DNA of 38,730 nt from Flavobacteriales bacterium. Lineage in GTDB: Bacteria; Bacteroidota; Bacteroidia; NS11-12g; UBA955. Shown piece after piece: positions 5,553 through 38,564 of the stretch. The first letter of the stretch is position 1. The number at the start of each line of letters is the position of its first letter. A program made the position numbers and the translations under genes. The stretch is from the NCBI GenBank assembly GCA_024643755.1, contig JAHEMG010000010.1, positions 1 through 38,730 of the forward strand, written 5' to 3'. Under the pieces are notes generated by a model. The model was not told the origin of the DNA. It searched no databases and saw only the letters and a program-made list of their open reading frames with translations.

Positions 5553-8500
5553 TTAATATGTATCCAAATCAATGGCATGCATGATACCATACCAACGAAC
5601 TACTTTTTCACCCAAATCCTTCGTCTTCACGTGAATCAAGTACAATCCTGAAGCAATAGGTACATTGCTACCGTTTTTCAAATCCCACTCGTAGAAGGTA
5701 TTGTTGTCCGCCTTGTTTACACGACGAATCAAGTTACCTGCCATATCGAAAATGGTGATTGTACACTCAGGTGGCAAGTTGGTGATTTTAACACGAGAAT
5801 CGATAGGACTGTTTTCGTACTCGCTGTAACCTCTGTATGGGTTTGGAACAACATTCACCAAATCCAAGTTTTTAGTACCAATTTCATTTGACACTTTCGG
5901 AGCGATGCTTGCTGCGTCGAATGAGTACATCGGACGATTGTTGTTGATATTATTACCAGCATCAAAAGTGGTGTAGGCCTTGCGGATATTGATGTTGAAA
6001 GTAACTTCCGTTGGGGGCTCATTTTTGTTAATCATCTTGTAACCAGGGGCCATGTATGAAGGCATTACCCACATGATCTGCGACAACAAACGCGTTTTGT
6101 CCAAAGTAGCCACTTTTCCACCAGCTGCAGCAGGCAACAAAGCCGTTTTGAAGCGTTGGAAGTTTGCTTCGTCTTCACCCAAGTAACGCTCGCCTTTGAT
6201 GTTACGAGAAATACCACTCACACCCGTTCCAAAGATGTATACGAAATGCTTACCACCCATCGCAGGATAGTTACCATTGTCGTTATATACTTTGTCGGTT
6301 GGATTCCAAATCATATCCCTACCATTCTCACCACCCAAGTAGCTATCTTCAGAGAAGGCCATTGCCAAACGCTCACCTGTTTCCATATTGATGGCGTAAC
6401 CAGGGAACCATCCCAAGCCCATTGAACCTGAAATGGGGTTTCCGTTTTTATCTACAGAAGGAGCGAAACGCATGTTGAACTTCTCCATTTGTCCTTCATT
6501 CGAATTTTTCAATTCATCATCAGACATTTCCAATACAGGGCAACGTGTCCACAAGTCTTTGTTCGGTGTGATAACAATTTGCACACTCGCCAATTCACTC
6601 AAAGGACTCTGTAATCCTGATGAGTTACCCCACCAAGCGAAACCATAGGTATTTCTTCCGGCTGCGGTCAATTTCTCACGAGCAACCAAACCATAAGGCG
6701 CAATTCTACCGTTCCAGATACGTTCAAATGCTTGACCAGGGTCTGCCGCAGTTCCATCCTGGTTAAAGAAATCGTGAATCAAAGGATCAAATGTAGCACC
6801 TCTACCGTTGCTACCCGAACGGATCCAGTTCTGCCACAATGCACCCGAATTTGCTGTGTTTTGTGCGTCATTGTCGGCCACAGCGGTCAACCATTGTTTA
6901 CCATTGTTCTCCCACTTAACACTCCAACTCAACATACCATTGCTAGGATCAGCATTGGCATTTTCACCTGGGTTAAATACTTGCTCAACTTCTACACTAA
7001 AGCCCCAATCAGCCAAAGTTTCCTGGGTCTTATTATTCTTTCCTCTTCTACCTTGAACAGATTCAAACCCAACACCAATGATGGTATCGTTGAAAATGGT
7101 ATCATTCTCCAAATCAGTTGCACCCTTCTTCACCATGAACCAACCAGTATTCTTGGTGATAGAATCTTTCAAACCAGACGCCAAAGACGCCTTATTTTCA
7201 CGCAAGACGAATTCAAATTTCGCATTAGGTACCTTAATTGGGTCAACAACTTTAATCTTTACTGGACCCGCACCAGCAACATAAGTTGCTTCTTTCGCAA
7301 ATCCGTTTTTCAAGATTTCGTCAACGGTTTCTTTGGTGAACTCCAATACATTGCCACCATTACCACGACCAGCCAAACGGGTCAAAACTGGACCACTGCC
7401 ATAGTTCGACTGCAACTCAGTTCCAAATTGCTCTGGCTCTGTTTTGTGAGGAATCGCTTTGTATGTTTTGATGTTACGACGTCCAGCCAAGAATTGGTTT
7501 GGATCAACCTGCAATGAATCATCCGCCAAAATAGCATAAGACAATACCATGTAATAAACGGGCTTGAAGTCTACCAAACGCGTGTTTGAACTAGTAGCAA
7601 ACAAATCGTTCTTGATGCTCCAAGTATGTTGAACACCTTGGTCTGCACCCTCAACCTTAATCACAGGTAATAAAGCAGCCAACTTAGGATCATAAACCTT
7701 ATTGACAATCATACCACGGTTGTTCTTCATATCACACTGGAACAACAAACGCGCTCTGTCAATATTGTCCAAATCTCCCGTACTAACGGTGGCATCTTTC
7801 AACTGATACACCATGTAACCCTCGAACTTATAAGTACGCTCCTTATTATTCGCATCCTTATATTTTTCTGTGTAGTTCTCAACTTTAGGACTGTTTGTAT
7901 TCAAGAATTTCAATACCAATTCTTGCTCCAATTCCTGAATTTCGATATCAGGTGCATTAGGACCATCCAAAATTTTGAAATTATTGTTGAACAAGGTTTG
8001 TGCTTTATCACTCGCCAATTGCAACAAACGAATTGAACCTGTACCCAAACAAGGTGAACCTGCACCACCACTGGTAGTACGTGCCCACACTACACCTACA
8101 GTGATTCGCTGGATTTGACCAGGACGCAAAGTAAATGGACCTGTAGATTGCAAGAAACGACGGTCCCCAGGTTTGTTACCTGCAGATTTTTCATCCCAAC
8201 ATTCTGTAGGATAACTTGGATCTGTATTGGCTGGGAACATGAATTTGGCCGGCTTAGAACCGCCAAAACCAGTACCACCATAGGTTACATTCTGTCCACC
8301 CAACCACTTTCCTTGTAACAAATTGTAATATTCAATGGCCTCACCTGGGTTACCACGCACAGGATCTTGGTCGTTATTGTAGTACATGAAGTGACTCAAG
8401 CCCAATTGATTACCTGCTGAATCTGTAGGACCTTCAAAATAGTCCACACCCACAGTAGGGGGATTCAAACCATAACCCAATACACCTTCATCATCATCAT

Positions 8501-9461
8501 CACCATTGTAACAGAAACCCAACGAACGTCCAACATCACAACCCACATAGTCATCCGCGTAGTTACCCAAATCGGCATCCACCCACTGACCCATGTAACA
8601 ATCATTCAACGTGGTGAAACCACGGTTAATGATCTTAGAACTGTAGAACGTCATGTTGTTTACCTCATCGTTCGTAGCAAATGCAAAACCTGTCGTTTGA
8701 ATTTCAATACCGATCGGCTGTCCTTGCGTTTCGCTGTGGATGTTACCCTTGTCATTGTAAACCCACCAAATAAACATATCTGGCTGTTTGTCTACACCAT
8801 TGTCAATTGAAGGACGGCGGTCATCCAATACGGGGTGCTCCCCTGCAAATGGATCATAAACACCATCAGGTGTCACTTCTTTGTAAGGTGCCAAATATTT
8901 CGCTTCGTTACCAAACATCACGGCACGCTGACGGCCTGCTGGCCAATCGCGAATACCCGCACTTTGATTCAAATATTTACTGCTTTCAAAATCCTCCAAC
9001 TCATCGCGGGTCACCTTCCACATTTTGTCGTAGGCCTTACAACGAACAGGATCTGTACCAGCAGTGGTAGTATCCAAAGGTCCTGGCCAAAAATCCACAC
9101 CCTTTTGACGGTAAGTCATCGCAGCCAACTTCAAGCTACCACCATTATCGCGACCACCAATCCAGATAGCACCGGCAAAAAGCGCATGTTTTCTTACTGC
9201 ATTAGGGTCACTGATTTTGGGAATTTCGTATTTGGGATTATTAATGTCCCACCACATATCACCACCATTCAAAAGCTTGGTTCGAACGTTGTTTACGTCC
9301 AAATCCGCACTCTGGGATGCTGGTTCACAGGTGTTGGCAAATTGTCCTGCCCTACGATCCACACGGGGAGCATTTCCCCTGCCATTCAAGTTCAAAATAG
9401 GACGGGCTACCGCCATATGAACTGCCATTGCAGAGAGTAAAAATATTCCTAATCGTTTCAT
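5553..9461 (-). CDS. Large secreted protein (1302 aa) with T9SS-type C-terminal sorting-like domain
   Basis: Signal peptide MKRLGIFLLSAMAVHMAVA; C-terminus NLVNVVPNPYRGYSEYE...VKITNLPPECTITIFDMAGNLIRRVNKADNNTFYEWDLKNGSNVPIASGLYLIHVKTKDLGEKVVRW resembles FlgD/T9SS type-A CTDs. Confidence 0.8.
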   Translation of the reverse strand: MKRLGIFLLSAMAVHMAVARPILNLNGRGNAPRVDRRAGQFANTCEPASQSADLDVNNVRTKLLNGGDMWWDINNPKYEIPKISDPNAVRKHALFAGAIWIGGRDNGGSLKLAAMTYRQKGVDFWPGPLDTTTAGTDPVRCKAYDKMWKVTRDELEDFESSKYLNQSAGIRDWPAGRQRAVMFGNEAKYLAPYKEVTPDGVYDPFAGEHPVLDDRRPSIDNGVDKQPDMFIWWVYNDKGNIHSETQGQPIGIEIQTTGFAFATNDEVNNMTFYSSKIINRGFTTLNDCYMGQWVDADLGNYADDYVGCDVGRSLGFCYNGDDDDEGVLGYGLNPPTVGVDYFEGPTDSAGNQLGLSHFMYYNNDQDPVRGNPGEAIEYYNLLQGKWLGGQNVTYGGTGFGGSKPAKFMFPANTDPSYPTECWDEKSAGNKPGDRRFLQSTGPFTLRPGQIQRITVGVVWARTTSGGAGSPCLGTGSIRLLQLASDKAQTLFNNNFKILDGPNAPDIEIQELEQELVLKFLNTNSPKVENYTEKYKDANNKERTYKFEGYMVYQLKDATVSTGDLDNIDRARLLFQCDMKNNRGMIVNKVYDPKLAALLPVIKVEGADQGVQHTWSIKNDLFATSSNTRLVDFKPVYYMVLSYAILADDSLQVDPNQFLAGRRNIKTYKAIPHKTEPEQFGTELQSNYGSGPVLTRLAGRGNGGNVLEFTKETVDEILKNGFAKEATYVAGAGPVKIKVVDPIKVPNAKFEFVLRENKASLASGLKDSITKNTGWFMVKKGATDLENDTIFNDTIIGVGFESVQGRRGKNNKTQETLADWGFSVEVEQVFNPGENANADPSNGMLSWSVKWENNGKQWLTAVADNDAQNTANSGALWQNWIRSGSNGRGATFDPLIHDFFNQDGTAADPGQAFERIWNGRIAPYGLVAREKLTAAGRNTYGFAWWGNSSGLQSPLSELASVQIVITPNKDLWTRCPVLEMSDDELKNSNEGQMEKFNMRFAPSVDKNGNPISGSMGLGWFPGYAINMETGERLAMAFSEDSYLGGENGRDMIWNPTDKVYNDNGNYPAMGGKHFVYIFGTGVSGISRNIKGERYLGEDEANFQRFKTALLPAAAGGKVATLDKTRLLSQIMWVMPSYMAPGYKMINKNEPPTEVTFNINIRKAYTTFDAGNNINNNRPMYSFDAASIAPKVSNEIGTKNLDLVNVVPNPYRGYSEYENSPIDSRVKITNLPPECTITIFDMAGNLIRRVNKADNNTFYEWDLKNGSNVPIASGLYLIHVKTKDLGEKVVRWYGIMHAIDLDTY

Positions 9462-9479
9462 AAATCTTTCTTTTCTTGT

Positions 9480-12400
9480 TTAGTTGAAGTTAATACGTAA
9501 ACCTACACGAACCGTTCTGGGCGCACCCAACATACCCGTTTGTGAAGCCAACATAATTTTATACAAATCAATATAACTCTGAGCGTCAATTTGGTTTTGA
9601 GCCAACAACTGTCCTTGAGGAGAATTGATAAATCCATCATCCATTGCCTGACCTGTGTAAGGATAAACCGAATTCACGTTGCGTGCATTCAACACGTTTT
9701 GTACCCAGAAGAAAACACTCATGATCAAAGGTTTGCCGTTGTCCTCACGGTTGAAACGAATACCTTTGGTAATGTTAATATCAAATGTTTGTTGCCATGG
9801 CAAACGAGCACCGTAAGGCACACCTTTGATTTGTGCACGATCCACCGCACCAGACTGCACAGGTCTAACTGTAGGGGTATAAGGCGTTCCACTGTATGAG
9901 TTTGAAATGATATTAAAGCTGGCGTATTTGAAGATTTCTTTGCCATTCACCTTAGGACCCAAATACAAATTCTTCTTGGTTTTGGGGTCTATACCACCGC
10001 CATAAGCCCAAGTAGCCATCAACTTGATGTTGTGACGAATATCCAACTCGCCCAAAGGAATTACGTTACGCAAATTGGGCTGGTTCGAAGCAATCAATGT
10101 GGCCTGTGAACTGATGTTTGATCCAGTACCATCGGCAAATTGCAACATGTAACTTGCAACGAATGAGAATGGGCCAGGAATCGTACCGATGCCACCAATG
10201 TCGTTCATAGAGAAAGTACCTCTGAAACCAGTGATGGTTGAGAAGTCGATGTTACGGTAAGTTGTGTATGTTACTGGATAGCCCTGGCTGATTTGATACA
10301 AACCAAAGTCTTTTCTGTTTTCACTGTAAGAAGCCGCAATTTCCAAACCACGGTCTTTCTTCACACCAAAAATCTGCTTGTAACCCACTTCGTAGTCAGT
10401 TTTAATACGGGGTTGCAAACTTCCGTTTGAAATGGTGGCACCCTGACGGTTCTTCAAGTAATACAATTCATCAATTGACAAGAATGAAGCCGCTTGGTTC
10501 GGACGTTGTGCTAATACATCATAGCTCACATAGAACGACTTTCTTTCTGGCTCCAAGGGGAATGAGAACCAAATACGTGGCAACAAGTTCAGAGCTGGTG
10601 TAAAATCTTCCAAAGCGTCTTTGGTCAATTCTTGCTTATTTGGGTTAACCAAGTATGGTGCGATTCTACCATTGCTGGTTTGGTTTGCCAAAAATTCTGC
10701 ACTCTTCAATTCAGAACCATCGGCATTGAACCAACGGTCACCATTGCGATATCCAATGATCTTGGTGGGTGATTGAATGTCATTCACGTACACCTTGAAT
10801 TCTTCACCAATGTTATTGGGATGAGATACTGCCAAACCATTGATTTCGGTAACCTCAGCAGCCGTCTTGATAGGATACAAAGTATAGGGATCTTTCAACA
10901 CCAACTGGTTGGCATCATAACGCTCCATACGAACACCCAAACGGAATACCAAGTCCTTGAAACGGAACTGATCCTGCAACCATGCTGAAATATAGACTGG
11001 CTGAAATGCACCAATGGTGCGCATGTCTTTGTTATTCAAAAACTGCTCAATACTTGGCTTGCCAATCACCTTGTTACCCAAATGGTCGTAACCGAAATAA
11101 CTAACTAAACCATTACCATTGTTCAACAACTCATCCGCATTAAACATATCCAATGAGAACATGCTGGGGTCATAAGAATTGATATCAACGAAGGTGCGTT
11201 CGTCTATGGTATTTCCGTAAACGTCTTTCCCTCCACCAGCAATCAACTTATCACGGAAGGCACGGTCAAAGTGCGACTGTTCACCGTAGTTGATCAAACG
11301 ATTATAGCGAACTGTGTCTGTGAACTGGCCATTGGCATCATAACTCAAAATGGGATTACCCAAATCCAATTCTGCGATGTGCTTATTCATTTGTTGACGC
11401 ATCAATACCCACAAGCTATTGGCAGCCAATCCATAACCACGAGTTATTTGCTGCTCATAGTAGAAACCCGCTTGTAAATCGTGCTGAGTTCTTTCACGAC
11501 CCCCCACTGATTTTGGCTTAACAGACATCTGTCCTACCGCAAACACACCATAACGTTCTGTATTTGATTTTGAATAGTTCGCCGTAATTCCACCTGGAGT
11601 ACCATGCAATGAGTACACACCGTTCGGGTTCATACCATTCAACAAACCTTGGTTGGTCAACAGGGTATTCATATTTTGAATCTTGAAATTACGACTGTCG
11701 TAATAGTCATAAATATTCTCGGTATACTTGGCACGAAGAGGGTTCAAGTCACTTGCCTTGAATGACATCAATGTATCAGCATAACCCACTTGCTCCCAAT
11801 AGTTTCTCAACTGTACGTAGTTACCAAACTGATCGCGAACAATCTTGGGCTCTTTGTTTGGATTCTGTGAAGGATCATAGTTAGCATATGCGTACACAGC
11901 CGTTGGATATGACTGAAACTTACCAATGTAACCGTAATCAAAAATGTTGTCCAAATGCCTTGCATCACGTGTTAATGAAGACGAAGTTTGATATTCGGCA
12001 CGAACAGAGTAGTATGCATTCTTGATTGAGCTTTCTTTGTTCGTTTTGAAGTTTTGGGTAAACAACAAGTAACCACGGAATGTCTGGTTATCGCCACGGG
12101 CGTTGTTCTTGTAATTCATCACCGAGTTGCTCGCTGATAATCCAGATGAGTAGAAGTAACTCGCGTAACCAGTTACACTCACATACTGAGAAGGACGCCA
12201 TTCCAATTTACCTACGAAGTTTCCGTTTCCACTTGCGCTATTCGGACGTGCCTTCAACAATTCGAAGTCTTCCATACGCAAGAAGTTGGCACTGTGTACG
12301 AAACCATTGGGCGTAAACACCAAAGGATTTTCTTCGATTTCAGCCAATTTCGCATCGTTCACACGGTAAACACCTGTGCGTGTAGGCGATGCATCCTTGT

Positions 12401-13268
12401 AGTAACCCAAGTTGGCGTTCATCATATAACCCAACTTTACGTTGCGCTTGGTTTTACCTGTTGAAGGATCTTTTTCTTCCTTTACCCAAATCGGACCGGA
12501 AATGAATCCCTCAACGGTGTTGTATCCAAAAGGATCCAAACCAGTTGAAGTAATTCCTTCAATCGCTGTTACAATTTTATCAGTCGCTGACTTTGAGGTA
12601 GATGAAAACACCCCGCCTGTTAAGTCACCGTACATGGCAGGAATACCTCCTACGTTCGCAGAAATCTGCTCTGTACCCAAGGTTGGCAATCCGCCTCCAC
12701 CAATAACACGCTGACCGTCAATGTATGTACCGTTACCGTCTGCACGTGTACCACGAACCGAAATACCTTGTGGCGTACTCAAAATGGCCGAGTTTGTACT
12801 TTCCAACAAACCTGTACCACGCTGACCCGATCCAACAATCGATTTTCCATCAATCACAGACTCGGATTTCAAGAAATCAACCGGCGCTCTCTTACCTTTC
12901 ACCTTGATTACCGCTGGACCCATGGTGCCTGATCCCGACTTGATGAAATTCACTTCTTCATCAGGGTTTTGGCCTGGTTGCAGACTGATGTCCTTGATCT
13001 CCTGATCAGGATAGCCCTCTTTGGTCGCTTTTACGTCGTACCTACCCGGTGTTAACGTAGCAAAACCGACGTTACCGTCTGAATCCGTGGTATCCGTTGC
13101 AACCTCAATGTTGTTCAACAACATCACAATCTTTACACCGCTCATGTTCCGGCCATCTTGGTCTTTGGCCTTAATACGAAAGTCGGCAAAGTTGGTTTGC
13201 GCTGTTACCACACCGATGGACAAAACCACCACTGCGAGTGCAATAATCTTACGTAGCATATACTTCAT
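9480..13268 (-). CDS. TonB-dependent receptor with N-terminal carboxypeptidase-regulatory-like domain
   Basis: Signal peptide; FRIKAKDQDGRNMSGVKIVMLLNNIEVATDTTDSDGNVGFATLTPGRYDVKATKEGY; plug-like region GTGLLESTNSAILSTPQGISVRGTRADGNGTYIDGQRVIGGGGLPTLGTEQISANVGGIPAMYGDLTGGVFSSTSKS; C-terminal VRVGLRINFN. Confidence 0.92.
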   Translation of the reverse strand: MKYMLRKIIALAVVVLSIGVVTAQTNFADFRIKAKDQDGRNMSGVKIVMLLNNIEVATDTTDSDGNVGFATLTPGRYDVKATKEGYPDQEIKDISLQPGQNPDEEVNFIKSGSGTMGPAVIKVKGKRAPVDFLKSESVIDGKSIVGSGQRGTGLLESTNSAILSTPQGISVRGTRADGNGTYIDGQRVIGGGGLPTLGTEQISANVGGIPAMYGDLTGGVFSSTSKSATDKIVTAIEGITSTGLDPFGYNTVEGFISGPIWVKEEKDPSTGKTKRNVKLGYMMNANLGYYKDASPTRTGVYRVNDAKLAEIEENPLVFTPNGFVHSANFLRMEDFELLKARPNSASGNGNFVGKLEWRPSQYVSVTGYASYFYSSGLSASNSVMNYKNNARGDNQTFRGYLLFTQNFKTNKESSIKNAYYSVRAEYQTSSSLTRDARHLDNIFDYGYIGKFQSYPTAVYAYANYDPSQNPNKEPKIVRDQFGNYVQLRNYWEQVGYADTLMSFKASDLNPLRAKYTENIYDYYDSRNFKIQNMNTLLTNQGLLNGMNPNGVYSLHGTPGGITANYSKSNTERYGVFAVGQMSVKPKSVGGRERTQHDLQAGFYYEQQITRGYGLAANSLWVLMRQQMNKHIAELDLGNPILSYDANGQFTDTVRYNRLINYGEQSHFDRAFRDKLIAGGGKDVYGNTIDERTFVDINSYDPSMFSLDMFNADELLNNGNGLVSYFGYDHLGNKVIGKPSIEQFLNNKDMRTIGAFQPVYISAWLQDQFRFKDLVFRLGVRMERYDANQLVLKDPYTLYPIKTAAEVTEINGLAVSHPNNIGEEFKVYVNDIQSPTKIIGYRNGDRWFNADGSELKSAEFLANQTSNGRIAPYLVNPNKQELTKDALEDFTPALNLLPRIWFSFPLEPERKSFYVSYDVLAQRPNQAASFLSIDELYYLKNRQGATISNGSLQPRIKTDYEVGYKQIFGVKKDRGLEIAASYSENRKDFGLYQISQGYPVTYTTYRNIDFSTITGFRGTFSMNDIGGIGTIPGPFSFVASYMLQFADGTGSNISSQATLIASNQPNLRNVIPLGELDIRHNIKLMATWAYGGGIDPKTKKNLYLGPKVNGKEIFKYASFNIISNSYSGTPYTPTVRPVQSGAVDRAQIKGVPYGARLPWQQTFDINITKGIRFNREDNGKPLIMSVFFWVQNVLNARNVNSVYPYTGQAMDDGFINSPQGQLLAQNQIDAQSYIDLYKIMLASQTGMLGAPRTVRVGLRINFN

Positions 13269-16659: not shown

Positions 16660-18753
16660 TTATTTACCCGACCAGTCAAACAAGATTCGCACGGCCTCAT
16701 CCATTCCCGCATCTTCGCGGTAACGCTTCAACCAATCTTGCTTTTGTGCCAGTTTGATAGCATCTGTTCCAGCCTCCTTCAAGTCAACCTGTAACGCCAT
16801 CACTGTATCACAAACCGTCCTGTATTTGTAGTCGCGCAGCGGCTTATCCTGGGCCCTCAACGCCTCTTGCTGTGCCTCGAACTTCTTCATATTCAACGAA
16901 TACGTGTATTCATTGCGCACTTGTGCCAATTCCAAAGATCGCTTTTGCACCAACGCATAATACTCATTCTTAGTCAGGCGCTTTTTTGACTGTTCGATGG
17001 CCTTCAATCGCTGAGCTTCCTTGAATGGATTGTATCGCTGATAGGCTGCCGCAGGGATTTTATCGTAAGCCAAATGGAAGTCCATTTCCTTTTCCCCTTG
17101 TTCAATACCATCATACACATCAGGCAACACCACATCGGGCTCTACCCCACGCAATTGCGTTGTTCCGCCATTGATGCGATAAAACTTCTGAATCGTCACC
17201 TTCAATTGACCAAATCCACGAGGAAACACATCACTTTGTCCGCCCGGCAATTCCACAAACGTCTGCACCGTACCTTTACCGAACGTGCTCTTGCTTCCTA
17301 CGATCACCGCCCTACCATAATCTTGCAAAGCTGCAGCCAAAATTTCAGAGGCAGAAGCACTGTAGGTGTTGGTTAAAATGACCAACGGACCACTATAATC
17401 CACAGACGGATTGCGATCTTCATGCACTTCTATGCCTCGCATGTCTTTAACCTGCACGATTGGACCTTGAGGGATAAACAATCCTCCCATTTCTATGGCA
17501 TCTGCCAAACTGCCACCGCCGTTGTTGCGCAAATCAATGATAATGCCCTTAGCACCCTCTTTTTGCAACTTGGCGATCTCTGTTCTCACATCACCGGTGC
17601 AATTACGACCGCGACCCCGCTGTGAGAAATCGGCATAGAAACTAGGCAAATGAATCAACCCAAATTTTTTGCCTTTGTAGGTCATTACTGCGCTTTTCGC
17701 AAAACTCTCCTCTATCACCACAACTTCACGTATGATCGGAATCACAACGATGCTACCATCGGGCTTTTTCACCGTCAAACGCACTTCTGTACCCTTCTTT
17801 CCGCGAATCAATTGAATGGCATCATCCAACTTCATATCCACCACATCCACTGGCTCTGCAGGACCTTGTGCAACTTTCAAAATCAAATCGCCCGCTTTCA
17901 ATTCGCCCTGACGGTAGCTGGCGCTTCCAGGAACAATCCGCTCCACTTTCACGTAACCATCACGCTCGGTCAAAGTGGCACCAATACCCTCCAACTTGCC
18001 TGTCATCCCGATATCAAAGTTCTCCTTGTCTTCTGGCGGAAAATAATTGGTATGGGGATCATAAATTTCTGCAATCGTGTTGGCATACATCCCAATTTGA
18101 TCACGGCGATCCATTTTCTTCAACCGTTTAAACCAGTCTGTATAAAATTTCTTGGTCTCATTACGCGCCTGCAACTCCAAGGTATCGAAGGGTTTTTGCT
18201 TGGCGATGGCCGATGAGTCTTTGGCTTTCTTTTGGGTTTCCAATTTGCGCGATAAACGCTCCATGCTTTGGAATTGCAACCATTTTTGCCAGTCCTTTTT
18301 CAAGGTCTCCCAATTGGGTTGAAAAGCCTGTGGCTCATCATACACAGTATAGGTTTCATCCAAATCGTAGTTCAAGGGCTTGGCCAATGACTCCGCGATT
18401 ACGGGCTCTAGGTTCGACAATCGGGCCATCAAAATATGCCAGGTTGTATCGAAGAAATCGAACCTACCCACCTGTATTTGATCATCGATTGATGTCTTAA
18501 ATGGCTCAATCGCCTTCAAATCTTCTTGGGTGAAGAAATGCTTATCGCGGTCAAGGTTGTTGATGAGGTTGTTATAGATATTCACACTCAGTGAATCATC
18601 CAACTCCTTGGGTTCGTAATGGGCCTCTTTCAGCATCATCATCAAGGTGCCCAAAAAGCTATCATTCTCTCCAAATTTCTTGTTACTACAGAACACGAAC
18701 AACGCCAAAATCATCGACGTGGTGGTGATCACTACCCAACGGTTAATTCTCAT
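16660..18753 (-). CDS. prc: Tail-specific / C-terminal processing serine protease (S41, PDZ domain)
   Basis: YDPHTNYFPPEDKENFDIGMTGKLEGIGATL; PDZ region RIVPGSASYRQGELKAGDLILKV; GIIIDLRNNGGGSLADAIEMGGLFIPQGPIVQVKD; LTNTYSASASEILAAALQDYGRAVIVGSKSTFGKGTVQ. Confidence 0.95.
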   Translation of the reverse strand: MRINRWVVITTTSMILALFVFCSNKKFGENDSFLGTLMMMLKEAHYEPKELDDSLSVNIYNNLINNLDRDKHFFTQEDLKAIEPFKTSIDDQIQVGRFDFFDTTWHILMARLSNLEPVIAESLAKPLNYDLDETYTVYDEPQAFQPNWETLKKDWQKWLQFQSMERLSRKLETQKKAKDSSAIAKQKPFDTLELQARNETKKFYTDWFKRLKKMDRRDQIGMYANTIAEIYDPHTNYFPPEDKENFDIGMTGKLEGIGATLTERDGYVKVERIVPGSASYRQGELKAGDLILKVAQGPAEPVDVVDMKLDDAIQLIRGKKGTEVRLTVKKPDGSIVVIPIIREVVVIEESFAKSAVMTYKGKKFGLIHLPSFYADFSQRGRGRNCTGDVRTEIAKLQKEGAKGIIIDLRNNGGGSLADAIEMGGLFIPQGPIVQVKDMRGIEVHEDRNPSVDYSGPLVILTNTYSASASEILAAALQDYGRAVIVGSKSTFGKGTVQTFVELPGGQSDVFPRGFGQLKVTIQKFYRINGGTTQLRGVEPDVVLPDVYDGIEQGEKEMDFHLAYDKIPAAAYQRYNPFKEAQRLKAIEQSKKRLTKNEYYALVQKRSLELAQVRNEYTYSLNMKKFEAQQEALRAQDKPLRDYKYRTVCDTVMALQVDLKEAGTDAIKLAQKQDWLKRYREDAGMDEAVRILFDWSGK

Positions 18754-18807: not shown

Positions 18808-20871
18808 TTATTTACCAGGACCTTTTGGCGCCGGAGGAGGAGGCATATTGGGCGCACCATGACCAGGGCCTCCCTGACCATTGTGTCCAGGACCACCTTG
18901 TCCGCCAGGACCGCCTTGTCCGCCAGGACCACCGGGTCCGCCCATTGGTGCACCTTTCATCTCTGGCAATGGCTTGTAGAATTTCTCCAATCCCAACGTT
19001 TTGATTCCTTGATCAAATACCAAATCAACGGGAATACCTGCCTTTTCAATGCGATTCAAGTCCATCTGCAACGAAGCACCAATCACACCGCGTGTGTTCA
19101 ATACCGCTTTTACATCCGCAGCGTTACCGTTGCCCTGTAAACGCAATAATTCACCCGCCAAATCAGAAATCACTTGGCGCATTTTAGCCACATCCACACG
19201 ATAAGTACGCTTTTCTGCGCCCCCATCGGCCACAGGCTTTCCTTTTTCTTCCAAAACGATAGCCCCCTGATTCAACAGGGTATTAAACGTAATCATATTG
19301 GCTTTTCCATGAGCCGATGACGCACCAAATCGCACAGAACGGAACACGCTGGCAACAAAAGTCACATAATAGTCATCCAAGCTGCCTTCAAGTTCCTTTT
19401 GATCAAACAATTGAGTCACCATGTACAATCCAAGCACGTCTGCTTTGCACTCCTCAATGGCCGAATAGTCTGCACCCAAGGCTTCGCGAACGGTCAATTT
19501 ATCATTTCCAACAACATTTTTAATACCCAATCCATGAGCCACTTCGTGGAACATGACATTATTAAAAAATGCATTGAACGTAATGTTCTTCTGTTGAGAA
19601 GGGGCAATAACACGTGCGGCGATGGGCACCACCATGTTTTCAAATTTTGCCTGCATGGTGTTCTTCAACTGAGAACGTCTTGTGCCATAATATTTCTGCA
19701 ATCGCTCATCATTGGGCAAGTTCACCGCGATGGTCTTGCTGCCAGAATTGCAATCGCCTGCATAATACACTGCGTCAAAAACAGCCAACTGACTCAAGGG
19801 CTTAGAACCGGGCTCACGTGGTGGGAAACCTGGCTCCATGGTCATTTCAACGTGGTCGCTGCTGGCCTCGTCTTGATCCAATGAGGGCTTATATTGAGAT
19901 TCTACAGGCAAACCCGCTTGCAACTTGGGCAAGTATGCAATGAATTTCTCCAACTTCGCATCCCAAGCCTTGTCGCGCACCAAAACATACGCTTCGTACG
20001 ATGTTTTCTGTCCATACAACTTGTCTTCGTAATTCTCAATCGGTCCGATAACCAAGTCTAAATGGCTTTTCAACGACAACCATTTGATATCGCTCACCGT
20101 GTAATCGTCCATCATCAAAGCACCCATGCGCAAACGCAAATATTCTGAAAACTCTGGATCTTCTGCACGAATAGCTTCGGCCGCCGCGTTCATTTCATCA
20201 CCCATTTTCATGACCTCTTCGCGATAGAACTCGCCAAATTTAATTGACTGATATTCTTTGCCATTGCCACTGCGGAAAGGCATTCCCATGGGCTCCGGCA
20301 TGATTGGACCATTTTTGTGCTTACTTGGATCGATTGGTCCGGGCGCCTTAAAATCACGCACAATAGAGTATGGCTCTTTCACAAAAGGCAAAAACATGGT
20401 ATCAATGCCTGCCACAGAAAAATCGCGGGGATAGAAATTAACACCCATCGGCTTTGGACCATATCCTTTGATGAAAGGTTCGTCGTTATTCAAACGATCC
20501 CAAGGACCATAATTGACATCGGCAAATTTCCTTTCGCTCGGGTCTTTGATACCAGCCAAAAAGTCGCCTTTGTCGCCAATGGTTTGCTTCCAAAATATAC
20601 GGTCTGCATATTCCGCTGCTTTGATCAAGTGGGTGATACACTCGCGTTCAGCCGTACTCAACAACGCCGTATCGGTCTTCAATTCAAACTTTTTGTACAT
20701 CGCAAGTCGCTGTGCAGCCACATTGGGTGCAACAGGCGCCGCAGCCACAGGGGCTTTTTTCTTGGGCTTTGCCGGCTTTTGGGCCATTGCTGGCATTGAG
20801 AATGCAACGGTTGCCAATGCAACGATCCAATTCAATTTCACCTTGGGATGGTTCACGAAATTTTTCACCAT
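18808..20871 (-). CDS. Secreted M49-like (dipeptidyl-peptidase III family) zinc peptidase with Gly/Pro-rich C-terminal tail
   Basis: Signal peptide ...VALATVAFSMPAMAQ; metal-site motifs MFHEVAHGLG (HExxH) and EECKAD; tail GGPGGPGGQGGPGGQGGPGHNGQGGPGHGAPNMPPPPAPKGPGK. Confidence 0.83.
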   Translation of the reverse strand: MVKNFVNHPKVKLNWIVALATVAFSMPAMAQKPAKPKKKAPVAAAPVAPNVAAQRLAMYKKFELKTDTALLSTAERECITHLIKAAEYADRIFWKQTIGDKGDFLAGIKDPSERKFADVNYGPWDRLNNDEPFIKGYGPKPMGVNFYPRDFSVAGIDTMFLPFVKEPYSIVRDFKAPGPIDPSKHKNGPIMPEPMGMPFRSGNGKEYQSIKFGEFYREEVMKMGDEMNAAAEAIRAEDPEFSEYLRLRMGALMMDDYTVSDIKWLSLKSHLDLVIGPIENYEDKLYGQKTSYEAYVLVRDKAWDAKLEKFIAYLPKLQAGLPVESQYKPSLDQDEASSDHVEMTMEPGFPPREPGSKPLSQLAVFDAVYYAGDCNSGSKTIAVNLPNDERLQKYYGTRRSQLKNTMQAKFENMVVPIAARVIAPSQQKNITFNAFFNNVMFHEVAHGLGIKNVVGNDKLTVREALGADYSAIEECKADVLGLYMVTQLFDQKELEGSLDDYYVTFVASVFRSVRFGASSAHGKANMITFNTLLNQGAIVLEEKGKPVADGGAEKRTYRVDVAKMRQVISDLAGELLRLQGNGNAADVKAVLNTRGVIGASLQMDLNRIEKAGIPVDLVFDQGIKTLGLEKFYKPLPEMKGAPMGGPGGPGGQGGPGGQGGPGHNGQGGPGHGAPNMPPPPAPKGPGK
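18886..18942. repeat. Imperfect 18-bp tandem repeat encoding GGQGGP units in the M49-like peptidase tail
   Basis: Plus strand tccaggaccaccttg/tccgccaggaccgccttg/tccgccaggaccaccggg/tccgccc read directly. Confidence 0.7.
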
Positions 20872-32457: not shown

Positions 32458-33039
32458 TTACCGGGGCTTCTGCGTGTCCCAAATCTCTGCAATCGCCTCA
32501 AACTCTTCGTACCAAGACGGTCCCATTTTGCGGGTCAAAGCCTCCTTCAAAAACTGATATACAGGCACTTTCTTCTCCTCTCCAACCCTACAGGCCTCCG
32601 AACACAAATTCCAACTGTGGTAGTTCAAAGCCATGTATTCACCATATTGCTTCGCCCTGATGGGATACAAATGACAGCTCATGGGCTTCCTAAACCAAGA
32701 CTGATTGGCAAAATAGGCCTTTTCGATGGCACAGCCGGCGATTCCTGCTTCATCGTACACCACAAAAACACATTCACCCGTAGGCAAACAAGTAGTCACC
32801 AAATCGCCATCTCTATCCTTTTCATGAAACCCAACTTCAGCCACTTTGGCCTTGCCTAGGTCCGACATAAAAGGCGTGTATTTCTCGTATTCCTGAGCAA
32901 TGATGTCGATCTCCGCTTCCTCCAATGGCGCGCCAGCATCGCCCTGAACACAACATGCGCCCTTACAACTCAGTATCTGACACTCAAATTTCTTTTCAAG
33001 GATATCCTCCGATACCAGGGCTTGTCCAACAATAATCAT
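32458..33039 (-). CDS. DUF3109 family cysteine-rich protein
   Basis: FECQILSCKGACCVQGDAGAPLEEAEID...CLPTGECVFVVYDEAGIAGCAIEKAYF...KPMSCHLYPIRAKQYGEYMALNYHSWNLCSEAC. Confidence 0.87.
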   Translation of the reverse strand: MIIVGQALVSEDILEKKFECQILSCKGACCVQGDAGAPLEEAEIDIIAQEYEKYTPFMSDLGKAKVAEVGFHEKDRDGDLVTTCLPTGECVFVVYDEAGIAGCAIEKAYFANQSWFRKPMSCHLYPIRAKQYGEYMALNYHSWNLCSEACRVGEEKKVPVYQFLKEALTRKMGPSWYEEFEAIAEIWDTQKPR

Positions 33040-33051
33040 CCCCGCAACCGA

Positions 33052-33567
33052 TTACTCACCCAAATATTGCTTCCACCCCTCGCGCTCCAATTTATCCGCT
33101 TTTCCCATCACCTCAACCCGCATCGATTCTTTGTAATCTGATACTCGCTGAGCGATGGTCTTGTCGGCCACTCCCAAGATCTGTGCTGCCAAAATACCTG
33201 CATTCTTAGCACCGTTGATGGCCACCGTAGCCACAGGAACACCTGGAGGCATTTGAACAATCGAATACAAGCTATCCATACCGCTCATTGTCTTGGTTTG
33301 CACCGGCACACCAATCACAGGCAAGTGCGTAAAAGACGCCACCATTCCTGGCAAATGCGCTGCACCACCAGCCCCTGCAATAATCACTTCCAAACCGCGC
33401 GAAGCCGCCTGTTCAGCATAGTCCATCAAACGCTTCGGTGTTCTGTGTGCGCTTACCACCGTCATTTCGTAGTCCACACCCAACGCATCCAAAATCGCCC
33501 CTGCCTCTTTCATTACCGGCAAGTCGCTATCGCTACCCATGATGATGCCTATTTTCTTCATTTTCAA
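33052..33567 (-). CDS. purE: 5-(carboxyamino)imidazole ribonucleotide mutase
   Basis: [49 protein letters not shown]...[27 protein letters not shown]. Confidence 0.98.
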
Positions 33568-34307
33568 TTCGATTTATTCGCAAAGTTCGCCAAAAGCGAA
33601 ACAATAATATACAAAAAGTAAAAAACGATGAATCCTGCCGACCCAAATAGCACACAGGGCACAGCCAATCCAACCAAGGATAGTTTGTACTTACGCAAGG
33701 GATCATTGGCCCCAAATTTCATGGCCAACATCGGCAAATCACTCACCATCATGTAAGCCGTCAACAATGGCATATACAACCAAACCCAAAAATGATTCAA
33801 CAAAGGGCGGATATCGATCAACGGCTTATCAATGAACCACAAATCGCCCGGATGTCCCAAATTGTAACTCATCCAAGCAAAAGATCCCAAAACCAAACCC
33901 GTAATCGGCGTGGGAATGCCCAAAAAGCCCGTGGTTTGACGCGTATCAATGTTAAACTTTGCCAGGCGATACCCCGCCGCCAATGGAATCAACATCCAAG
34001 TGTATCCATTTATGCAGAAACGGTCTGGCGGACAGTATCCCTGATACTCCATCATCGCCTTCCAAATCAAACCGGGCAGCACACCAAACGTAACCACGTC
34101 GGCCATGGAATCAAGCTGTTTGCCCATCTCACCGGCCACACCCAGCTTTCTGGCAGCAAAGCCATCAAAAAAATCCAATCCAGCGCCCAACAACATCAAT
34201 AAAAAGCCCATCCATTCCTGTCCCGCCATCACAAATCCGATACCCAACAGGCCACAAGCCATGTTGCTCAGGGTAATCAGATTGGGTATTTCTTTCATCC
34301 ATTTCAT
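33564..34307 (-). CDS. pssA: CDP-diacylglycerol--serine O-phosphatidyltransferase
   Basis: [60 protein letters not shown] (CDP-alcohol phosphatidyltransferase motif). Confidence 0.95.
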
Positions 34308-34308
34308 A

Positions 34309-36336
34309 TTAGTTGATCGTATCTAAATTCAATGTAATTCCCATTTCCATGAATAACCCGGCCTTCAATCCACCCAAGTTATCACCGTTGAAATAGTTCA
34401 ATCCCGTTGCCTTATACTGCCAACTGCGATTTTTCGTTTGCGACTCTTGATAACCCGCTTTTGCATATAAGGACAGCGCATCATGTGGCCTAAACCTTGC
34501 AGAAATATAAGCTCCTGGCACCCATTCACGCGATGTGATGGTCTGTATGCCATTAATCACAGGATTGCCAAAATTCAAGGTTGGTGGCACATACTTCAAT
34601 TGGTGTGTCACATGCCAAGCCCTCAGGCCTACACTCCACAACCAGGCCTTTTTGTCGTACAAATTCATGCCCGCATCCACATGATATACCCTCGCACGGT
34701 AATTCAACCGCTCCCCATCAGCAGCGCTGAACAATGACTTTTTACCCTGCGCATAACCCAACTCCATGTGTCCACGCTGACCCAAAAAGGTCAATCCCAC
34801 AGGCACATAAAACAATTTGGCATCGCTCAATGGATAGTTATTGGCTGCAAAGTGCTGGGTAAATTCATCCGACAAAAACTGCGGAGTCATGTAACGTGCA
34901 CCAAAGGTTAGGCCAATGTGGTGATCGCCCACACCAGAATAACCGTCATAATCGCCATCGTATTCATCAGACTCGTCTGATTCTTCGGTAAAATCATGGG
35001 CCAACACAAAATCAAACTTCTTGGCCAACTCCACCAAACCACCAGATGAATCTTTGGTGTGATACAACATCATCCCTTTATCAACTGTTGCCAAAATGGC
35101 TTTCACCTCTTCATTGATAGCCAAGGTATTGCCCAAGTTCACGGCACAGATATCCTTGCCATCAAACTCCTTCTCTTTGTAAAAAATCCCTACCGATAAA
35201 ACCGATGTGTCATTCCTAAAATAACGGGTGCGCAAACGGGTAAGCAAGCTATTGTATTCAAACCAACCACAATCTTGTTGTTGCTTATTGGTGCTGATAT
35301 GACAGCGGCCAAACTGACCAAAGAACTTTCCACTGGGGTATTGCTTCAACAATTTCACCATGTTTTGGAACATATGCTCTTCACGCCATGCCACTTGCTG
35401 TGCAGAATTATCGGTTTTTGTCCATAAGTACCACTCACGCAATTGTCCAAACGCCAACGCATATTCTGAATAATCTGCACCCATCCACTGCTTCCACACT
35501 TTGCTGCTATCGGCATATTTCCCGTCGATCGCAGCATGCTTGCTGAGCCACAAATACAACTCCATCGAACCATCTTCGGTGTCAAAATCTTCTTCTTCCT
35601 CATTCATCAAAATCACATCCATTCGCTGATCTACACCCTCCAAATCTTCAACAATCACAGCAGCGGCTGAAACAGTGTCAGTAGTGGATATCATCAACGC
35701 AGTATCAGATATACTTTCCTCTGAATCTTCATCATCTGTGCCTTCTTTCTCAATCTGCTGGGCCAATTTGGTCGCCATAAAAGCACCCATACGGATACTC
35801 GGAGGCGCCATGCCACGCTTTTGTATCACATCGCCCAACCGCATCACCGTCATGTCGTAAAAACGCTCTACATCCAACCCATGCACCTTGATCTTTTGTG
35901 AGTCTGGCAAGGTTTGGTTCCAAACCCGGATGCTATCAAACAACTTCATGTAATCGTCTGAAGATGTGGCGCGCAGAAAACGCTTCGCTGTTGAATCTGT
36001 GTTCGTGAAATATCGCTCCATGTAAAGGGCGCGGGTGGGACTCAATTCGATCACAAAATGTCGTACCCCGGCCTGCTCATGAAAGAACTTCAAAAAGCGA
36101 TATTCACCCAATGAATTGAAGCCAGAAAACATGTGGTTTTCACCCGACAACATCACGCGAGCTTGTGCCGCACGGTCTGTCAACGGTTTAATGCTCTTCA
36201 ATTCCGCAAATCCATTTTGCTTAAAATCAATGTAATAACCCGTTGGCAATAAGTTTGTTTCTTCGGTATTCTCTTTCTGTGCTTGTGCACCAACCATCAA
36301 GGCAAACAAACAGCCTGTTAACATCCACTTTTTCAT
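34309..36336 (-). CDS. Exported erythromycin-esterase/ChaN-like domain fused to C-terminal beta-barrel-like domain (675 aa)
   Basis: Signal peptide MKKWMLTGCLFALMVGAQAQ; ARVMLSGENHMFSGFNSLGEYRFLKFFHEQAGVRHFVIELSPTRALYMERYF; IKVHGLDVERFYD; FFGQFGRCHISTN; acidic linker EESDESDEYDGDYDGYSGVGDHH, then amphipathic strands (IGLTFGARYM, FYVPVGLTFLGQRGHMELGYAQGK, LWSVGLRAWHVT, GLKAGLFMEMGITLNLD). Confidence 0.7.
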   Translation of the reverse strand: MKKWMLTGCLFALMVGAQAQKENTEETNLLPTGYYIDFKQNGFAELKSIKPLTDRAAQARVMLSGENHMFSGFNSLGEYRFLKFFHEQAGVRHFVIELSPTRALYMERYFTNTDSTAKRFLRATSSDDYMKLFDSIRVWNQTLPDSQKIKVHGLDVERFYDMTVMRLGDVIQKRGMAPPSIRMGAFMATKLAQQIEKEGTDDEDSEESISDTALMISTTDTVSAAAVIVEDLEGVDQRMDVILMNEEEEDFDTEDGSMELYLWLSKHAAIDGKYADSSKVWKQWMGADYSEYALAFGQLREWYLWTKTDNSAQQVAWREEHMFQNMVKLLKQYPSGKFFGQFGRCHISTNKQQQDCGWFEYNSLLTRLRTRYFRNDTSVLSVGIFYKEKEFDGKDICAVNLGNTLAINEEVKAILATVDKGMMLYHTKDSSGGLVELAKKFDFVLAHDFTEESDESDEYDGDYDGYSGVGDHHIGLTFGARYMTPQFLSDEFTQHFAANNYPLSDAKLFYVPVGLTFLGQRGHMELGYAQGKKSLFSAADGERLNYRARVYHVDAGMNLYDKKAWLWSVGLRAWHVTHQLKYVPPTLNFGNPVINGIQTITSREWVPGAYISARFRPHDALSLYAKAGYQESQTKNRSWQYKATGLNYFNGDNLGGLKAGLFMEMGITLNLDTIN

Positions 36337-38564
36337 TTCTGTGTTCTCCTTTCTTTGGTGCGGGGCGATTTTTGTCCTACCGATACTGTCGCTGCTGTAT
36401 CATACGAATACGACTCGCTGCGGCTACCACCTGAATACAAATTATCATCAAATTTCCAATGCAACCCCACTTCACCCATCAAATACCAACCGGTGCTTTT
36501 GAATTCAGACCCGTTGTTCATGGGTTCTTTTTGATACAGCCAAGTACTCTCACCCAAATCCCATGCATAGCCTCCAGTAACACGGGCAAAAAACGGACCT
36601 ACATGCACCGTGGGCTCTATCGTTAACCCATACAAATATGCGGGGTTGCTCACCACAAAACTGGGTTGCTCTTGGTTGATAAACCCACCTGAGTTTACCA
36701 TAAATTTCTTATAGCGCTGCTCTCCATAACCCGTAAATCCACCTACCCCAAAGGTCAGGAATCGACCCAGAGGAAACTGTGTCATATCGCTGTATAAAAC
36801 ATAGGTGGCACCATAGTTGTCCTTTTCACCACCCACCGTTTGTGCCAACTGCAAGCGATGATTTTGTAGCAAATTTCCTTTGCGGGTATTGATACCAATG
36901 CTAATGCCCTGGGTAATGAGATTTAACTCCTCACCAGCAGGCAAACCCATTACTGAACGCATCGCATTCAAGTATTTCGGTCTAAATATGGGCTGAATTT
37001 GTGTGTATGCAACATCAAAAACCAAAGCCACATCTTCTCTTACCGACCCATATATGCGCTTGCTCATGAAGGAACTACTCGAAGATTCTTCATCATCCCA
37101 GCCTTCATAAGCGACAGACGCAGAATCAAAAGCAACGCCCCAATCCCAGCCCTCTGTTGTTTCCGCTATTTGTAGCACTAAGGTTTCAACTTGCACAGAA
37201 TCCTTCAGTGTATACTTATCTGTAATATTGGTAAACAGCTGCACAGTATCTTGTTTGCCCATGCCAAAAGGATCATCACCCAAAGCCGCAGTATCTGTTC
37301 CACCCAAAGCACTCAATGGGGGATAAACGGTGGTATCCATCGCCGATGTTGTCGCGCTGCTATCCAATTTCAAACGCATCAAGGTATGCTCATACGAACT
37401 CATGCCCATCATGAAAACACGTCCCACATCACTCAATCTCACCCCTTCCATCAACAAATCCTCCATCAAACTAGGCAACACCTTTGCGCTATAGCGATGG
37501 ACCGCAAATTGTTCTATCGGATCAGAACCCAACACCAAAACACGGCGCTTTTCATTTTTCAACTGCCCAACCAAATTCGCACGCTTTTGCCACTGCTCAA
37601 AATAGGTCTCTCCAACCAATACCCGATCATTCACAGAATCGCGTGGAATTGGCTTCAACCAAGGTTTTAACGCTTGAAAAGCAGCCCTGTTCTCAGGCAA
37701 AATATATTGCTCTAATTCCCCTGAAATCGCCCATAATGAATCGCGCAGTACCGTAATGCTCTCCACTGCACTAAAAGCGGGATCCACATCCAAACTCTCG
37801 GTTTCATCTTCGTCATCACCGGGCACTTGAATTTCGTTTTGCTCCTGCCATAAGCGCCACAATCCCACGGAAACCAGGGAACGAATGCCCTCGACTTGCG
37901 AACGAATGCGCGCCGGGATGTTTTCGTCGTTCTGCTCTGCACCCCCCAATCCCAATGTGGTATCTGCGGGAAACAAGGCATTCAAATACGCCGCCAAGGC
38001 ATACTCATACTCACGGTCGCTGTACTCCAAATAAGAACCACCGGCCTTACCATACAATTCGCTTGATACAAAGGAGAAGTTGGCGAAGGCCATGCTATCA
38101 ACCTTTCTGCGATTATCAATCGCATCCATCACTTGTATGAAAGGATTTTCGATGTCTTCGTCGAACGACATTTTCACGTATTCTTTATGACGCAAATCGG
38201 GGTGTTTCAAATACTCATTGAGCAAGCCCACTTGAATCGGGTGAAAATTGATGTATGCTGCTCCAAACTGCTGCAAATCACCGCTGTGTATCAACGACAC
38301 AAGCTCTATCATTTCGATGGGCTCATTCGATTCTGTCGCAACACAAGTTGAAGCCAAGACAATTTTCTTGTTATCCAGTGAGGAAAGTACCCGACCCTGG
38401 TAGATTTTCGGCGCGATTTCAGTTTCAGAATCGCCAACGGTGGTCACAACCGCTGCAGTGTCAGACGCCACCTTCGTAGCAACCGCATCCCACTGCGCAC
38501 CCAAACCACCCATGCAAAGGGCAAGAGAAGAGAGGGCCCAATGCTTCTTTTTATTCATGTTCAT
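36333..38564 (-). CDS. Exported protein of unknown function with C-terminal beta-barrel-like domain (743 aa), probable partner/paralog of the 675 aa protein
   Basis: N-terminal signal-like segment; RRVLVLGSDPIEQF; acidic linkers PGDDEDETESLDVD and WDDEESSSSS; C-terminal strands DVALVFDVAYTQIQPIF, LITQGISIGINTRKG, FLTFGVGGFTGYG, WYLMGEVGLHWKFDD. Overlaps the next gene by 4 bp. Confidence 0.6.
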   Translation of the reverse strand: MNMNKKKHWALSSLALCMGGLGAQWDAVATKVASDTAAVVTTVGDSETEIAPKIYQGRVLSSLDNKKIVLASTCVATESNEPIEMIELVSLIHSGDLQQFGAAYINFHPIQVGLLNEYLKHPDLRHKEYVKMSFDEDIENPFIQVMDAIDNRRKVDSMAFANFSFVSSELYGKAGGSYLEYSDREYEYALAAYLNALFPADTTLGLGGAEQNDENIPARIRSQVEGIRSLVSVGLWRLWQEQNEIQVPGDDEDETESLDVDPAFSAVESITVLRDSLWAISGELEQYILPENRAAFQALKPWLKPIPRDSVNDRVLVGETYFEQWQKRANLVGQLKNEKRRVLVLGSDPIEQFAVHRYSAKVLPSLMEDLLMEGVRLSDVGRVFMMGMSSYEHTLMRLKLDSSATTSAMDTTVYPPLSALGGTDTAALGDDPFGMGKQDTVQLFTNITDKYTLKDSVQVETLVLQIAETTEGWDWGVAFDSASVAYEGWDDEESSSSSFMSKRIYGSVREDVALVFDVAYTQIQPIFRPKYLNAMRSVMGLPAGEELNLITQGISIGINTRKGNLLQNHRLQLAQTVGGEKDNYGATYVLYSDMTQFPLGRFLTFGVGGFTGYGEQRYKKFMVNSGGFINQEQPSFVVSNPAYLYGLTIEPTVHVGPFFARVTGGYAWDLGESTWLYQKEPMNNGSEFKSTGWYLMGEVGLHWKFDDNLYSGGSRSESYSYDTAATVSVGQKSPRTKERRTQK

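Follow-up and report, generated by a model that had tools for sequence, protein, structure and literature searches.

An Ere/TIKI-superfamily hydrolase with a predicted outer-membrane barrel and its degenerate tandem partner in Bacteroidota

A gene pair on contig JAHEMG010000010.1 of a Flavobacteriales bacterium (assembly GCA_024643755.1) probably encodes an esterase-like enzyme joined to an outer-membrane barrel and, alongside it, a degenerate copy that has been kept. The stretch that we analyzed, hereafter the window, spans 38,730 nucleotides and is part of a 2.36-Mb draft genome whose closest named relatives are Bacteroidetes metagenome-assembled genomes from freshwater and lakes. Both genes lie on the minus strand, with that of the 743-residue protein P743 upstream and that of the 675-residue protein P675 downstream. 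An original prediction, made from the letters of the DNA, had described them as adjacent genes that overlap by 4 bp and encode signal-peptide proteins; both open reading frames are present, the overlap is an ATGA, and both N-termini are signal peptide-like. We consider it fairly probable that P675 is a periplasmic, barrel-tethered hydrolase of the erythromycin esterase (Ere)/TIKI superfamily and that P743 is a retained pseudoenzyme-barrel partner derived from it by in-place tandem duplication.

36333..38564, minus strand: P743 open reading frame (743 residues), with a signal peptide, a degenerate Ere-derived domain, a linker and an eight-strand barrel; presumed pseudoenzyme partner
34309..36336, minus strand: P675 open reading frame (675 residues), with a signal peptide, an Ere/TIKI-superfamily hydrolase domain, an acidic linker and an eight-strand barrel
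36333..36336, minus strand: ATGA overlap (4 bp) of the two genes; many orthologous pairs show a -4 overlap as well, and translational coupling through it is likely

The hydrolase domain of P675

A profile of the P675 N-terminal domain (42 sequences) matches the solved proteins BcR135 (E 4e-13), BcR136 (E 8e-13) and EreC (E 4e-9), and a Foldseek search with the predicted P675 model returns 2rad, 3b55, and 6xcs (EreC) at a probability of 1.00, with low template modelling (TM) scores. Profile and predicted fold together support the placement of P675 in the Ere/ChaN (TIKI) superfamily, in agreement with the EreA/ChaN-type fold first proposed for it. The erythromycin esterase model PF05139 scores the full-length protein at 21.8 bits and the domain alone at 23.6 bits, below the curated gathering cut-off of 26.4 bits, which some barrel-fused relatives pass, unlike P675. 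The relevant features are as follows.

36277..36336, minus strand: P675 residues 1-20, signal peptide-like as read from the sequence (...GAQAQ)
34993..36240, minus strand: P675 residues 33-448, Ere/TIKI-superfamily domain, from A3 profile matches and Foldseek hits to 2rad, 3b55 and 6xcs
36133..36141, minus strand: E66-N67-H68, motif 1 (GENH); E66 is the counterpart of EreC E47, and H68 that of H50, one residue nearer to the Glu
36046..36048, minus strand: E97, corresponding to EreC E78; the E66-E97 spacing of 31 is that of E47-E78
35299..35385, minus strand: R318 to H346 (WREE...FGRCH), corresponding to EreC R261 and H289, with a 28-residue spacing in both

The catalytic roles of E47, H50, E78, R261 and H289 in EreC have been described (PMC7979712). 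In EreC numbering, the PF05139 catalytic set is complete in P675, except that the first His stands at E+2 rather than E+3. Every Ere-like motif quoted in the original prediction is present and conserved in relatives. None of the 57 barrel-fused enzyme copies and none of the nine soluble relatives departs from E66, H68, E97, R318 or H346. Four of these residues (E66, H68, E97 and H346) also supply the 2His/2Glu site of TIKI, EreA and ChaN proteins, in which motif 1 reads E-x-H or E-x-x-H. In a sample of the class, the E+3 form (GExxH) occurs in all 16 PF05139 proteins that lack a barrel and whose motif can be read, versus E+2 in all four barrel-fused ones.

The same E+2 spacing is found in RRSP, a TIKI-superfamily 2His/2Glu endopeptidase (E3900-x-H3902, E3930, H4030; PMC6254334), so P675 may hydrolyze either an ester or a peptide. 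Ester and peptide hydrolysis are indeed treated as a single shared mechanism in PMC6254334. Both points would suit a TIKI-like peptidase that acts on a periplasmic or outer-membrane protein, rather than an esterase, an identity that would be compatible with the pairing of P675 and P743. Against it, the profile and fold matches of P675 are to Ere proteins (BcR135 and EreC) and include the R261 equivalent R318, and P675 matches no peptidase family. Likewise, motif spacing and the 2His/2Glu set are shared with the TIKI/TraB/ChaN superfamily, yet the best relatives of P675 are Ere proteins and no TIKI, TraB or ChaN family model matched. We regard the peptidase as somewhat unlikely.

Ere-family homology could also be taken to mark P675 as a macrolide resistance determinant, a true erythromycin esterase. 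This is highly improbable: besides falling short of the PF05139 cut-off, P675 scores 14.3 bits against the NCBIfam EreB model, whose cut-off is 750 bits, and it is a barrel-tethered protein encoded within core chromosomal synteny. The GExH motif also resembles that of ChaN, and the original prediction had entertained a haem-acting system. In a ChaN-like system, the role of P675 and P743 at the outer membrane would be to bind haem or iron, and ChaN does belong to the same fold superfamily (PMC6254334). Pfam scans, however, gave no ChaN or other haem-binding family match, the complete hydrolytic residue set is invariant, and the conserved gene neighbourhood includes no haem or TonB genes. The haem proposal is not borne out by these results, and we judge it very unlikely.

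P675 thus shares with the Ere family (PF05139; EreC, BcR135 and BcR136) its fold, all five catalytic positions, and both the E-E and R-H spacings; it differs in having GExH in place of GExxH, an outer-membrane barrel fusion, an inactive paralogue alongside, and a sub-cut-off score. In the open-access papers that we searched, we found neither an Ere/TIKI domain joined to an outer-membrane barrel nor a tandem partner lacking activity. What is new relative to the known superfamily is the barrel-fused architecture together with the motif spacing and the dead twin. To our knowledge, few Ere-superfamily members have an assigned natural substrate. The barrel-tethered subfamily, which is common in this bacterial order, puts a member of the superfamily in the cell envelope.

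The degenerate domain of P743 and its origin

37365..38387, minus strand: P743 residues 60-400, degenerate Ere-derived domain, from profile alignment to the Ere domain

Scanned directly against Pfam, NCBIfam and PDB sequences, P743 gave no match, and when the small family alignments of P675 and P743 were compared by hhalign, only the barrels matched. The link between the N-terminal domains emerged once intermediate sequences and a broader Ere profile were brought in. In hhalign, a P743 N-domain profile restricted to the window genus scores 95.4% against this broad Ere-domain profile (95.3% without signal peptides), compared with 0.2-2.6% for reversed and 20 block-shuffled profiles and at most 1.6% for 40 unrelated families from the same loci. 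With all degenerate partners pooled, the match to the Ere profile is 97.9%. The global profile alignment places P675 E66, H68 and E97 on P743 T73, V75 and N106, R318 on R328, and H346 on R357, the last pairing being unreliable, as the final-His segment of P743 shows no local similarity when tested alone. The stretch YFEQWQKRANLVGQLKNEKRRVLVLGSDPIEQ, proposed as the counterpart of the final His motif, therefore holds its place in the global alignment but not in the comparison of the segment by itself. On these computational comparisons, the N-terminal domain of P743 is homologous to the Ere domain and has lost the catalytic residues that are complete in P675.

Relatives of the pair illuminate how this came about. 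The Ere-barrel profile matches 72 of the 108 genomes searched in this order; many Bacteroidia families encode a single enzyme-barrel protein of about 590-730 residues, and others encode soluble relatives of about 380-425 residues. Within the window's family, the loci read show the tandem pair in seven genera (g1, g6, g7, g8, g10, g12, and g14), and the altered copy is invariably the upstream one. In other genera of the family there is one copy, which in several cases occupies the same site (yicC - enzyme-barrel - pssA). The upstream copies of g6, g8, and g12 remain recognizably Ere over the entire domain (hhalign 100%, E 4e-77), and none of the six retains the catalytic His that serves as base. 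In one of them (L102), this His is the only one of the five positions to be lost, and three other intermediates retain H346 or E97 without the catalytic base. The Ere domain of the upstream copies has diverged further in g1, g7, g10 and g14.

In a tree of the barrels, all 21 upstream copies lie beyond one branch (support 86/98), and their genus groups largely mirror those of the enzyme copies. The simplest reading of these sequences is one in-place tandem duplication followed by loss of catalysis. The paralogue and pseudoenzyme partner of the original prediction is in this respect upheld, by profile similarity far above the controls, full-length intermediates in sister genera, and a single barrel clade. 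None of the three outcomes that the original prediction had named as fatal to it was obtained. Both genes also look to be under purifying selection: nonsynonymous changes are far below synonymous ones in each, with approximate ratios (dN/dS) of about 0.05 for the P675 enzyme and 0.11-0.15 for the P743 partner, values that are rough and come with dS near saturation. One fixed locus can thus be read as a series from enzyme to pseudoenzyme: a single copy, a duplicate that has lost only the catalytic base, full loss and, in one relative, fusion. Because this series is readable at one fixed locus, the role of the dead partner is directly testable.

Tandem Ere-like genes also occur in another form. 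Locus L156 (4584-5801 and 5773-6930, minus strand) carries two soluble Ere-like genes without a barrel; the catalytic residues are kept in both, and neither member is inactive.

Predicted barrels and the proposed joint function

34921..34992, minus strand: P675 acidic linker (EESDESDEYDGDYDG), from sequence and a low predicted local distance difference test score (pLDDT)
34327..34920, minus strand: P675 residues 473-670, OmpA/OmpX-like beta-barrel, from AlphaFold and Foldseek
36450..37025, minus strand: P743 residues 514-705, OmpX/Ail/OmpA-like beta-barrel and homologue of the P675 barrel

In the AlphaFold models, the C-terminus of each protein consists of eight strands, the first two of which are separated by a helix, and the best Foldseek matches of both barrels are OmpA, OmpX, Ail and OmpW (probability 1.00). 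No curated barrel family model scores above its cut-off. The two C-termini are accordingly predicted, as had been suggested, to be eight-strand outer-membrane barrels. Their homology is supported by hhalign (probability 92%, E 6e-7), which aligns IGLTFGARYMTPQFLSDEF with LVFDVAYTQIQPIFRPKYL, the same stretches whose likeness had been pointed out at the start of the barrels. The predicted barrels are of the OmpA/OmpX type and differ from it in the helix between strands 1 and 2 and in the position of the soluble domain, which precedes the barrel here and follows it in OmpA. EstA and OmpT, representing autotransporter esterases and outer-membrane enzymes, likewise combine a hydrolase with an outer-membrane barrel, which either carries the enzyme or forms it; in P675 the barrel is small and closed, the enzyme domain is probably periplasmic, and the catalytic domain is unrelated.

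Eight-strand barrels such as OmpA and OmpX have both ends in the periplasm. This topology would put both soluble domains in the periplasm and argues against the surface location first considered. A fused frame fits such a placement: in relative G062 (contig C21, L106:5287-8580, plus strand), partner and enzyme-barrel share one open frame of at least 1098 residues, the second half of which lacks the signal peptide found in the sister locus L105. The remainder of the frame is probably on G062 C71 (L107). The fusion suggests that P675 and P743 act jointly in the periplasm.

In the mechanism that we propose, the C-terminal barrel would tether P675 at the inner face of the outer membrane, with its hydrolase domain in the periplasm. 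There it would most likely cleave an ester, lactone or peptide bond, using water activated by the E66/H68-E97-H346 site with R318 in support. P743 would have arisen by in-place tandem duplication of the enzyme-barrel gene, losing the catalytic base first and most N-domain sequence similarity afterwards. It probably binds P675 or its substrate in a complex at the outer membrane, where it would serve as scaffold, regulator or presenter of the substrate; gene overlap, adjacency and the one fused frame are only indirect signs of such an effect on P675. More tentatively, the pair may constitute a two-protein outer-membrane enzyme of Bacteroidota, in which the Ere/TIKI hydrolase-barrel forms an obligate complex with its dead barrel-tethered paralogue and acts on an outer-membrane or periplasmic substrate.

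P743 might instead act independently, as a duplicate repurposed into a ligand-binding, adhesive or structural outer-membrane protein, its adjacency to P675 reflecting tandem origin only. Its N-domain and linker are strongly diverged, and its barrel has a conserved loop block of its own, GGFINQ.QPS..NPA (about residues 626-642 in the A2 alignment), for which the enzyme barrel shows no equivalent; the block is a candidate for a partner-specific function. Gene order, adjacency and the short overlap are nevertheless maintained in several genera, and one relative joins the pair in one frame, which makes independent action unlikely.

Several observations weigh against the paired hydrolase and pseudoenzyme that we favour. 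No significant alignment is obtained for the last third of the P743 N-domain, where the counterpart of the final His motif would lie, and Foldseek with the P743 model finds barrels and no Ere fold. Quality is modest in both AlphaFold models (mean pLDDT 58 for P675 and 53 for P743), the soluble part of P675 being likewise of modest confidence, and the near-saturated dS tempers the estimates of selection. The G062 frame is cut off where a contig of this draft genome ends, and direct interaction between P675 and P743 is something we infer. Finally, housekeeping genes surround the pair, and they vary from family to family (aat, a chorismate-binding enzyme, IMP dehydrogenase and a phosphoribosyltransferase in other families), so genomic context indicates no substrate.

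Genomic setting

33564..34307, minus strand: pssA-like CDP-alcohol phosphatidyltransferase gene directly downstream; a syntenic neighbour with no claimed role in the system

The order yicC - partner - enzyme-barrel - pssA - purE - DUF3109 is conserved through much of the family (window 32458-34307; G000 C5 38578-39048, past the window end), with yicC partly masked as N in this assembly. Since neighbours change between families, adjacency to pssA was not used as functional evidence. A plasmid or phage origin of the pair was rejected, as it has no plasmid or phage relatives.

Elsewhere in the window, positions 5553-13268 (minus strand) encode two adjacent, very large proteins of 1302 residues (FlgD_ig-like C-terminus) and 1262 residues (CarboxypepD_reg domain), likely secreted or surface proteins. 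A 687-residue protein with an M49 peptidase-like domain (18808-20871, minus strand) adjoins a tail-specific protease gene (16660-18753).

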